From positions 27,224 to 73,277 of the forward strand of contig MHWY01000002.1 of the NCBI GenBank assembly GCA_001824295.1: DNA of 46,054 bases, read 5' to 3'. Origin of the DNA: Candidatus Zambryskibacteria bacterium RIFOXYD1_FULL_40_13 (GTDB lineage: Bacteria > Patescibacteriota > Minisyncoccia > Phycocordibacterales > DATDWN01). Under the pieces are notes generated by a model. That model searched no databases. It saw nothing but the letters and a program-made list of their open reading frames with translations, and had not been told where the DNA came from. Made by a program: the position numbers and the translations under genes. Shown in pieces: positions 2,146 to 18,392 of the stretch (position 1 is its first letter; each line of letters begins with the position of its first letter).

Positions 2146-3384
<1,239 letters not shown>

Positions 3385-9023: not shown

Positions 9024-9027
9024 CGAA

Positions 9028-9047
9028 AGGGCCAGTTTCCTGGCCCT
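9028..9047. terminator. Hairpin between uvrA and the minus-strand small ORF
   Basis: AGGGCCAG-TTTC-CTGGCCCT. Confidence 0.6.
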
Positions 9048-9065
9048 CGTGTCGGTGATGTGATC

Positions 9066-9311
9066 TCACTGACTGAAGATGTCGTCAATCTGCTGTCTGG
9101 ACATGAATTCCTTCAGACAGCGTGAGCACGTTCCCGTTTGCCTCCCGCGGTATTCCTGGAATCCGACGTGTTTACACCTTACTTGAATAGTTTCAAGTGC
9201 AAGCTCGAGAACGCTGACGGTTTCTCTCGCTTCGTGGATCTTGCCAGAGATTACTCTGGCTACTCTGGCGTCTTCATCGATCTGTCCCGGCTTGGGCATC
9301 TCAACCTCCAA
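9066..9311 (-). CDS. Small orphan protein with zinc-ribbon-like cysteines, 81 aa
   Basis: VRCKHVGFQEYRGRQTGTCSRCLKEF; GC-richer than neighbours, bounded by hairpins. Confidence 0.5.
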   Translation of the reverse strand: MEVEMPKPGQIDEDARVARVISGKIHEARETVSVLELALETIQVRCKHVGFQEYRGRQTGTCSRCLKEFMSRQQIDDIFSQ

Positions 9312-9429
9312 TGAGAAACATTAAACCTTTTGCGTTGATTCGTCAAATTGAAACATAATTTGTATTATAACGAAATGAGCGCCGAGGGTTAGTCGGCGCC
9401 CGTAGTGTACGGTGTGACAGCGGGTGTCA

Positions 9430-9603
9430 CTAGTTCTTGAGACTTCTGATGGCACTGCAGATTTCCTGAACTTCGATGTTCAAGAATGTCAGCACGAAGA
9501 ACGCCGCAATCCCGGCAACACGGTTCTCCGTGGTCACACCAATCAAGACTCCAGTCACGACATTCACTGCGTGTAGGTATCCAAAGATGTCGGGCTTCTT
9601 CAT
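9430..9603 (-). CDS. Two-TM microprotein, 57 aa
   Basis: MKKPDIFGYLHAVNVVTGVLIGVTTENRVAGIAAFFVLTFLNIEVQEICSAIRSLKN; GAGGGG Shine-Dalgarno-like upstream; hairpins GCGCCGA/TCGGCGC and GTGACA/TGTCAC follow on this strand. Confidence 0.55.
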   Translation of the reverse strand: MKKPDIFGYLHAVNVVTGVLIGVTTENRVAGIAAFFVLTFLNIEVQEICSAIRSLKN

Positions 9604-9619
9604 TGTATTCCCCTCGGGC

Positions 9620-9793
9620 TTATCTGCCCACAAGACTGCTTGCGAGTCGCAACACGAGCCCAGCGACCAGCATGCCGAGCATGACGAACACAAAGCAGGC
9701 GACACCTTTCTCAACACTGTCGGTGAGTCCTCCCACCAACACGCCGAGTCCAAGACCGCCCAGAGCGCACGCAATGACGAGTGATCGAAACAT
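9620..9793 (-). CDS. Two-TM microprotein, 57 aa
   Basis: MFRSLVIACALGGLGLGVLVGGLTDSVEKGVACFVFVMLGMLVAGLVLRLASSLVGR; AGGGGGG Shine-Dalgarno-like upstream; same strand and order as the 9430-9603 ORF. Confidence 0.5.
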   Translation of the reverse strand: MFRSLVIACALGGLGLGVLVGGLTDSVEKGVACFVFVMLGMLVAGLVLRLASSLVGR

Positions 9794-9861
9794 ACGCCCC
9801 CCTAGGGAAAGCATATAATAAATTGCTGGAAAGTCAAGCTCGTGGTATATTCTAGTAAAGT

Positions 9862-11169
9862 ATGAAAATTGATTCTATAAAAAAAACGATATCAAAATTT
9901 CCCACAACACCCGGGGTGTATATTTTTAAGTCTAAAAGGCGAAAGGCGAAAGGTGCAAGTAAAATACTTTACATAGGTAAAGCTACATCTCTCCGTGACC
10001 GCGTAAGAAGTTATTTTAATCAAGATATTGTAAATACACGCGGTCCTTTGATAACCAAAATGCTGGACGGATTTAATGCTGTTGAATATATAAAGACCGA
10101 TTCAGTCTTGGAAGCGCTTGTTCTAGAGGCCCACCTTATAAAAAAATATCAGCCAGAGGCAAATGTAAAGGAAAAGGATAACAAGAGTTTCAACTATGTA
10201 GTTATAACAAAAGACCTGCCCGCCCTCCCGAGGGTACTCGGTCGGGAGCAGGTGGGAGATTACCCACGAGTTCTCATTGTTCGTGGTAGGGATTTGCAGA
10301 ATTACACAGGGTTACCCTATGTAGTGGCACATTCGTTTGGTCCGTTTCCTAATGGGAGTCAACTTAAAGAGGCAATGAAAATTGTTCGCAAGATGTTTCC
10401 TTTTCGTGATAAGTGCGAACCCCGTCCAAGGGTTCCCCTTGGACAGAACAAACCATGTTTCAATAGGCAGATTGGTCTTTGTCCTGGAGTCTGCACGGGT
10501 GAGATTAGTAAGGTTGATTATGCAAAACAGATAAAAAATATTGTTTTATTTTTACAGGGTAATAAAAAGAGGTTGATTAGTAGTTTGAATACACAAATGA
10601 AAGATTTGGCCAAGAAAAAAGAGTTTGAGAAAGCAAACCTTATTAAACATACACTGTTTACTCTAAATCACATTCAAGATGTTTCCTTAATAAAAGATGA
10701 TGTAAAGAAAAACAGAATAAGTGACGGTGAGGTTTTTCGTATTGAATCGTATGATATAGCACACATGTCTGGTCAAAACGTGGTGGGTGTTATGACCGTC
10801 CTAGAAAACGGTGAACCACAAAAGTCAGAATATAGAAAGTTCAAAATAAGAGAAAATCCTGGTGTGGATGACACAAAGGCACTAAAGGAAGTTATAACAA
10901 GGAGATTGGCTCATATTGAATGGAGGTTTCCAGATCTTGTGGTTGTAGATGGTGGAAGAGCGCAAAAAAATGTCGTAGAGAGAATACTCGGGGCCAATGA
11001 TGTGAAGATTCCAGTAGTCTCTGTAGTAAAGGATGAGAGACACAAACCAAAGGAGATTATGGGGGATAAAAGATGGTTAAAGCTTGAAAGGGAAATACTG
11101 CTTTCCAACAGCGAGGCGCACAGATATGCAATAAACTTTCATAAGCAATTAAGGGGGCGAATTAGATAA
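9862..11169 (+). CDS. uvrC: Excinuclease ABC subunit C, short form ending after the nuclease domain
   Basis: TTPGVYIFKS...KILYIGKATSLRDRVRSYF (GIY-YIG), KPCFNRQIGLCPGVC, FRIESYDIAHMSGQNVVGVMTVLENG, PDLVVVDGGRAQ. Confidence 0.93.
   Translation: MKIDSIKKTISKFPTTPGVYIFKSKRRKAKGASKILYIGKATSLRDRVRSYFNQDIVNTRGPLITKMLDGFNAVEYIKTDSVLEALVLEAHLIKKYQPEANVKEKDNKSFNYVVITKDLPALPRVLGREQVGDYPRVLIVRGRDLQNYTGLPYVVAHSFGPFPNGSQLKEAMKIVRKMFPFRDKCEPRPRVPLGQNKPCFNRQIGLCPGVCTGEISKVDYAKQIKNIVLFLQGNKKRLISSLNTQMKDLAKKKEFEKANLIKHTLFTLNHIQDVSLIKDDVKKNRISDGEVFRIESYDIAHMSGQNVVGVMTVLENGEPQKSEYRKFKIRENPGVDDTKALKEVITRRLAHIEWRFPDLVVVDGGRAQKNVVERILGANDVKIPVVSVVKDERHKPKEIMGDKRWLKLEREILLSNSEAHRYAINFHKQLRGRIR
9935..9955 (+). repeat. 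Heptamer tandem repeat AAAGGCG x2 + AAAGGTG inside uvrC
   Basis: Direct read: aaaggcg aaaggcg aaaggtg, encoding KRRKAKG between FKS and KILYIGKA. Confidence 0.75.
10215..10252 (+). repeat. Palindromic sequence in frame inside uvrC
   Basis: CCTG-CCCGCC-CTCCCGAGGGTACTCGGTCGGGAG-CAGG, including perfect CCGAG-GGTA-CTCGG (10228-10241). Confidence 0.65.
10424..10444 (+). repeat. Palindromic sequence in frame inside uvrC
   Basis: GTCCAAGGG-TTC-CCCTTGGAC, perfect 9-bp stem. Confidence 0.65.
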
Positions 11170-17711: not shown

Positions 17712-18392
17712 CTATACTTTAATTATATGTGCGAAATTTAGGGATTTAGTGATTGTAACCTTGTCCCCAATATTTAGCTCGATTTGGCCATTTTGATTGT
17801 CAGCAAATACCACAGCGGGACCTCGGGTTATTTCTAGTTCAATCTTTGCATCTTCCTTCAAAATCATGTGGTCAGAACGCTCCGTACTGTTATTGAAAGC
17901 CAAACCAATTCCAACCTCAAAGAAACTATCTGTTATTGAGCGGTAGTAGCCTGTAGAACCAAATGGTGTGGCCACAACAACTCCGTCACCAATCACCTCA
18001 TGGCCTATTTGCCTATCATTTACAATAAGCTTGTACCTAATAGCGTGTCTTGCATCATGGTTGTGGACTATAATCTCATTTAAAGCGAGGAGAGTTTGGT
18101 GCTTTGCTTCAACTACGAGTTTCCAATAGTCCAAGGTAATATATTCTCCGTCAGATACTTTTTCGAGCACCTCACTGTTTTCAAAAGGTGAACATAGTTT
18201 ACATATACGACTGTTTCTCAATATTATTTTTGGTATTCCAGGGTATTTTTCCTCGGATTGCATAACTGTCCCGTCTCCACCATAACTTACTACAAAATCA
18301 GGATTTTCATGAACAACAACAAACCCCTTTTCCTTAACAAGTTTGGAGATGTTGTCTATCTCTTTACCAAACAGTACTACTTTGTTTTTCAT
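17712..18392 (-). CDS. nadK: NAD kinase-like protein
   Basis: PDFVVSYGGDGTVMQSEEKYPGIPKIILRN; GDGVVVATPFGSTGYYRSI. Confidence 0.8.
   Translation of the reverse strand: MKNKVVLFGKEIDNISKLVKEKGFVVVHENPDFVVSYGGDGTVMQSEEKYPGIPKIILRNSRICKLCSPFENSEVLEKVSDGEYITLDYWKLVVEAKHQTLLALNEIIVHNHDARHAIRYKLIVNDRQIGHEVIGDGVVVATPFGSTGYYRSITDSFFEVGIGLAFNNSTERSDHMILKEDAKIELEITRGPAVVFADNQNGQIELNIGDKVTITKSLNFAHIIKV

Follow-up and report, generated by a model that had tools for sequence, protein, structure and literature searches.

The closest described systems are the REP/RAYT systems, or REPtrons, in which palindromes of 20–40 nt occur together with Y1 transposase genes bracketed by matched palindromes, and in which one genome can hold several palindrome types, some with a transposase of their own (PMC2817692, PMC6006769). 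Classical REPs carry a GT(A/G)G foot and are found in more than 100 copies, mostly extragenic; some RAYT subclasses have repeats that are atypical or without consensus (PMC6006769). Intragenic GTAG/CGTC REPs are known in several species (Di Nocera et al. 2013, PMC3733652). Among their hosts, the DNA-repair genes are stressed, with uvrA in O. terrae and Thioalkalivibrio and uvrB in R. conorii; genes for tRNA synthetases and for enzymes that modify tRNA are hosts as well (PMC3733652). The Rickettsia palindromic elements (RPE) are likewise palindromic repeats that form a translated, in-frame part of protein-coding genes; the insertions of RPE-1 are longer, and RPE-4 and RPE-6 are marked by a CGTC end and lack a transposase of their own (PMC3733652). 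In the papers searched, such elements were not found to be reported from Patescibacteria.

In the present analysis, uvrC and tgt of an uncultured Candidatus Zambryskibacteria-like Patescibacterium were found to contain in-frame palindromes. Three of them, namely segment 2 of uvrC, a third uvrC element and a tgt element, are best read as copies of small (~19-27 nt) REP-like palindromes.

Palindromic segments in uvrC and tgt

The genome (G000) consisted of 728,731 bp in 10 contigs with 39.7% GC, and the completeness of the assembly was 95.7%. The window, which is the whole stretch of 46,054 nucleotides analysed here, covered positions 27224-73277 of contig 2 and showed the gene order tgt-uvrB-uvrA-uvrC-ddl. 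The nearest named relatives of its UvrC came from Candidatus Zambryskibacteria and other Parcubacteria/Patescibacteria genomes. The features of the window were as follows:

2164..3384, plus strand: tgt, queuine tRNA-ribosyltransferase (Pfam TGT), host of a further in-frame palindrome
2795..2821, plus strand: tgt palindrome, family F3, ATTTGTCAACCTGCCAGGTTGACGAAT, encoding LSTCQVD in frame
9862..11169, plus strand: uvrC, 435 aa, with GIY-YIG, UVR and RNase H endonuclease domains (Pfam matches)
10216..10257 (approximate), plus strand: segment 1, a 42-nt in-frame insertion, LPALPRVLGREQVG, with an imperfect palindrome at 10215-10252 and its core at 10225-10248
10302..10324, plus strand: third uvrC palindrome, family F5, TTACACAGGGTTACCCTATGTAG, encoding YTGLPYV in frame in a variable linker
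10424..10444, plus strand: segment 2, REP-like palindrome, family F1, GTCCAAGGGTTCCCCTTGGAC, encoding PRVPLG in the variable linker of the Cys region

The first-pass annotation had described segments 1 and 2 as two palindromic sequences inserted in frame within uvrC. The sequences, coordinates, frames and peptides of both were confirmed. The two properties were divided between them: segment 1 was an insertion and had no significant hairpin, while segment 2 had a significant hairpin and was not a clean insertion. The third uvrC palindrome (10302-10324) and the tgt palindrome (2795-2821) were found in addition. In the AlphaFold2 model of the UvrC of the window (mean pLDDT 87), all four sites fell in predicted coil or linker; segment 1 formed a loop, modelled with low confidence, that joined two strands, and the third uvrC palindrome also formed a loop.

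Protein alignment and a codon-level view showed that segment 1 added exactly 14 residues (42 nt) in frame, and that the limits of this insertion nearly matched the palindrome unit described before. Its residues were absent from all 77 other non-redundant UvrC sequences, and the turn that it lengthened, typically ITxE-DFPR, was crossed without extra residues by 77 of these 77. The DNA hairpin of segment 1 was weak (z = -1.2; 23 of 200 shuffles folded at least as well). Within 3 mismatches, no second copy was found in the genome, and 11 same-genus genomes contained no copy. A search of 198 genomes of the order with the core (CCCGAGGGTACTCGG) revealed no convincing relative (3 matches including itself, against 1 for the control). 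No repeat family was found for segment 1. On the sequence comparison, segment 1 is a genuine insertion in the same size class as the REP-like elements, and it is only possibly a decayed one. The chances are about even that a short GC-rich stretch was inserted or duplicated in a surface loop by an ordinary event, and that it looks palindromic by chance and is unrelated to segment 2. A hairpin that is not significant for its composition and the lack of a second copy anywhere searched agree with such an origin, whereas the near coincidence of the insertion limits with the palindrome, and the likeness of the encoded PRV-LG to the PRVPLG of segment 2, speak against it.

Segment 2 formed a significant hairpin (z = -4.1, 0/200 shuffles). 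Genome-wide, 5 further sites were found within 3 mismatches (controls 0), and its family, F1, had 7 credible genomic copies in all. One of these copies was located in frame in the gene of tRNA-dihydrouridine synthase (Dus) and encoded the same peptide, PRVPLG. Alignment showed that the linker containing segment 2 differed in length by up to ~40 residues among relatives. At the site of segment 2, the linker of the nearest relative was one residue longer, so that no net length was gained from segment 2; the F1 copy in Dus likewise caused no net length change. This suggests that in both genes the element replaced, or merged with, loop sequence.

The third uvrC palindrome had 4 genomic copies, against 0 for the reversed control, and a hairpin z of -1.6. 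The tgt palindrome had a hairpin z of -5.5 and lay within a net gain of 5 residues relative to the nearest relative, G011. With up to 4 mismatches allowed, its family, F3, was found 4 times in the genome, and a fifth copy was shorter.

The idea of the first-pass annotation, in-frame palindromic elements in protein genes, thus holds well for three sites at which dispersed repeats were recovered: segment 2, the third palindrome of uvrC and that of tgt. Counting the same palindromes genome-wide gave 7 copies for segment 2 but a single copy for segment 1; alignment with relatives supported an insertion for segment 1, which was absent from the other UvrC sequences, but gave no net length gain for segment 2. 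The homologs did not share the same residues throughout: segment 1 occurred in none of them, and at the other sites different residues, often with different palindromes, were present.

Dispersed palindrome families and RAYT genes

At least five low-copy palindrome families were present in the genome: F1 with 7 copies, F2 with 3, F3 with 4-5, F4 with 5 and F5 with 4. Reversed-sequence controls gave zero matches to F1-F5, and the nearest relative (G011) contained zero copies. About one third or more of the F1-F5 copies were inside genes; copies were also found between genes and beside transposases. The proteins carrying copies in frame were UvrC, Tgt, Dus, ThrRS, RNase HII and a NifS-like protein (class-V aminotransferase), and the F2 and F4 copies that were not at RAYT genes were in frame in the last three of these. 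Compared with G011, Tgt had gained a net 5 residues, RNase HII 6 and the product of the NifS-like gene 3. The outer arms varied between copies yet remained complementary, which fits selection for the hairpin or hairpin-directed correction.

The ThrRS of this genome (C1:52402-54273) was a long form; that of G011 (C2:205843-207111) was shorter and lacked ~170 N-terminal residues, and several same-genus genomes shared this shorter form. In this genome and its relatives, the in-gene copies of AAGG type mostly read x-R-x-x-(x)-L-x. Their peptides were mostly (S/P/T)-(R/K)-x-x-(L/F)-(D/G/V), and the other frames were often open. A strict reading-frame rule was rejected; there was only a bias, with exceptions, and stops closed one frame in some families. 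An ORF of 285 aa with no Pfam match had F3 palindromes at both ends (L048:17368-18344; genome contig 3, 57368-58344), and it is possibly a mobile gene that has escaped recognition, or else a partner of the F3 family.

The Y1 transposase domain PF01797 was present in 40 of 61 genomes, namely in this genome and in 39 of 60 relatives. Two RAYT-like genes (PF01797) were found in this genome:

C3:17995-18651, minus strand: first RAYT gene, bracketed by F2 palindromes
C2:17305-17997: second RAYT gene, with F4 copies around and inside it

For the one RAYT tested, the best match was NCBIfam REP_Tyr_transpos, below the cut-off of that model. An F2 palindrome marked each end of the first RAYT (C3:17997 and 18650); the one at 17997 encoded the last residues of the protein itself. 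The second had F4 upstream, inside and downstream (C2:17297, 17505 and 18015). The loop bases of F2 and F4 had opposite orientation at the two ends of their RAYT genes, and inverted palindromes at the gene ends are the arrangement reported for RAYT genes (PMC2817692).

Links between palindromes and RAYT genes were also found across genomes. A one-base variant of F1 (TCCAAGGGTTACCCTTGGA) flanked a 222-aa RAYT on both sides in G117, a genome of the same order and another family, the pair having the same orientation and not an inverted one; the exact variant was also present in the genome under study at C8:43808. The tgt family F3 had a 20-nt exact match to the palindromes at RAYT L324 of the same-genus genome G002. 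In G030, 24 nt of a 48-nt perfect palindrome in uvrC recurred exactly in a palindrome located within a RAYT gene of that genome. Most RAYTs of the relatives were bracketed by inverted palindromes of the same family. For 17 of 21 RAYT genes (this genome and relatives), the two flanks had a repeat in common that was 12 nt or longer; among 515 background genes this was so for 14, and at least 3 of these 14 were themselves bracketed by these palindromes. The RAYT genes L331 (G030), L333 (G028) and L187 (G030) carried in-frame palindromes, either internal or as C-terminal residues. No degenerate RAYT was seen between the two F1 copies at C8:43807-44456, which enclosed only unrelated small ORFs.

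The best reading, and in our view a probable one, is that these elements are REP-like, that RAYTs mobilise them and that protein loops tolerate them. Its observed base consists of the dispersed families, their placement at RAYT genes, the in-frame copies in loops and the recurrence in relatives. The palindromes would be bound, cut and moved by their RAYT: this enzyme (Y1 tyrosine, HUH-type) would cut and rejoin the palindrome hairpin, inserting copies around the genome. Copies within genes would persist only where the frame was kept, no stop arose and the loop was tolerant, and the surviving ones would become short peptides such as PRVPLG, MSRVPLD and TRFHLV. Several points count against mobilisation by RAYTs. 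In this genome (95.7% complete), neither F1 nor F5 was found to bracket a RAYT, and the assembly may lack the F1 transposase through incompleteness. The palindromes had no GT(A/G)G foot, they occurred in 3-7 copies and not in hundreds, the uvrC family CGATATATCG had no RAYT link, and the palindromes of G006 occurred without a Y1 gene.

Alternatively, the palindromes could arise in place, fast-evolving linkers gaining inverted repeats by template switching or hairpin-directed correction in replication, with no transposase involved. Many uvrC palindromes of relatives are indeed unlike the RAYT-flanking ones of the same genome (e.g. the 46-nt palindrome of G028), the outer arms differ between copies but stay perfectly complementary, and uvrC palindromes are present in G006, where a search for Y1 genes found none. 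However, a single genome carried exact or near-exact copies at loci that are not linked, and such copies stood at either end of RAYT genes; different genomes also had exact matches of 20-21 nt, and dispersed families are not what an origin in place produces. We consider such an origin unlikely.

Palindromes in UvrC and other genes of relatives

Among 78 non-redundant UvrC genes, 25 strong palindromes were found, against 1.5 in codon shuffles or 1.7 in synonymous shuffles (maximum 5); very strong palindromes numbered 11, against 0.05 expected. The enrichment of UvrC across relatives was ~15-fold, and ~200-fold for the strongest class, with the counts among related genes being non-independent events. 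Most UvrC genes had no strong palindrome. Three linkers (around residues 146-151, 191 and 284-288 of the UvrC of the window) contained 19 of the 25 strong palindromes, and within these shared linkers the palindromes differed in sequence between lineages.

In the same relatives, 20 strong palindromes were found in UvrC (1.2 expected), 8 in Tgt (0.4), 5 in UvrB (1.1) and 1 in Ddl (1.0). A phenomenon restricted to uvrC was rejected, as tgt showed it too, uvrB weakly and ddl not. For the conserved genes overall, strong palindromes numbered 11 against 6.0 expected in this genome and 13 against 3.8 in G011, and gene samples from G030 and G008 agreed with a general effect. A genome-wide excess in genes was rejected as the explanation, since the excess in this genome was mild. 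The palindrome effect is general and concentrated in genes with tolerant loops; UvrC showed it most among the genes tested, a rank that holds for these and not for all genes of the order, uvrC having been chosen because it had been flagged.

That mild enrichment of conserved genes is what chance or a codon-usage artefact can draw on. Set against it are the strong enrichment of UvrC and the genome-wide copies with zero control matches. Chance was rejected for segment 2 (0/200 shuffles; control matches 0) and for uvrC as a class (25 against ~1.6), and its overall probability is negligible, although the hairpin of segment 1 may be due to chance. It is also highly improbable that the hairpins are kept for a role at the mRNA level, such as pausing at domain boundaries to aid UvrC folding. 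Their recurrence at loops and domain linkers would suit such a role, but their sequences and sites differed among relatives, strong palindromes were lacking in most UvrC genes, and members of the same families were also seen in intergenic positions and next to transposases.

Another palindrome family, with the core CGATATATCG, was observed in frame in uvrC linkers of G002 and G006-G009 (L012, L058-L061), in uvrC/tgt of G048 (L062, L268), and elsewhere. In the data, no RAYT partner of this family was found, and no Y1 gene was found in G006, which has uvrC palindromes of this type. The copies were often extended to perfect palindromes of 18-36 nt.

Relation to REP and RPE systems

The families share with the REP/RAYT systems the palindrome length, the occurrence of several types in one genome, some with their own transposase, and the Y1 transposase genes bracketed by matched palindromes, which were inverted for F2 and F4. 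In the broad sense of a REP/RAYT system, RAYT-type Y1 genes were therefore present and were bracketed by inverted palindromes. In the strict sense of GTAG-type REPs, F1-F5 were short dispersed palindromes but had neither a GT(A/G)G foot nor more than 100 mostly extragenic copies: no consistent foot was seen in the flanks of F1-F5 or of the palindromes at RAYT ends, and each family had 3-7 copies. Unlike classical REPs, a large share of the copies was in frame inside housekeeping genes, and the hosts were Patescibacteria.

In their in-frame translation and in their presence in repair and tRNA genes (here UvrC, and Tgt, Dus and ThrRS), the elements were in striking agreement with the intragenic REPs described before (PMC3733652). 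They differed in that the repair gene was uvrC, the palindromes were not of the GTAG type, and the same loops of one orthologue took unrelated palindromes in many lineages of one order. Intragenic REPs are thus already known, and what is new here is the phylum, the repeat types and the repeated use of the loops of one gene.

The first-pass annotation had pointed to the Rickettsia palindromic elements as an analogy. The in-frame palindromes bear this out; however, REP/RAYT systems are the better match because palindromes of the same families bracket RAYT genes. The present elements are shorter (~19-27 nt) than RPE-1 and are RAYT-linked, unlike RPE-4 and RPE-6, whose CGTC end (rule from PMC3733652) was absent from the ends of F1-F5.

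Mobile DNA of the REP/RAYT type is in this way tied to protein evolution in the ultra-small Patescibacteria. As ~90% of the sequence of these small genomes is in ORFs, there is little intergenic room, and REP-like elements turn up in essential proteins, where they appear to form new stretches of peptide. Mobile DNA appears to have been turned repeatedly into new pieces of working proteins, with relatives carrying different hairpins in the same loops. UvrC provides a natural series of this kind, in which the same loops hold different palindromes in many lineages, and through which insertion tolerance, frame choice and site preference become testable. The as yet unexplained excess of repair genes among the genes that bear REPs is extended to another phylum. 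That excision-repair genes are a favoured target of RAYT elements across phyla, with the elements interacting with host repair and not merely being tolerated in loops, is a tentative idea that we regard as quite improbable.

Within the window, the spacer between uvrA and uvrC (9024-9861, 838 bases) contained a number of small ORFs, most of them on the minus strand (9066-9311 and 9620-9814, for example). The spacer appeared GC-richer than the surrounding genes and is possibly a small inserted module.
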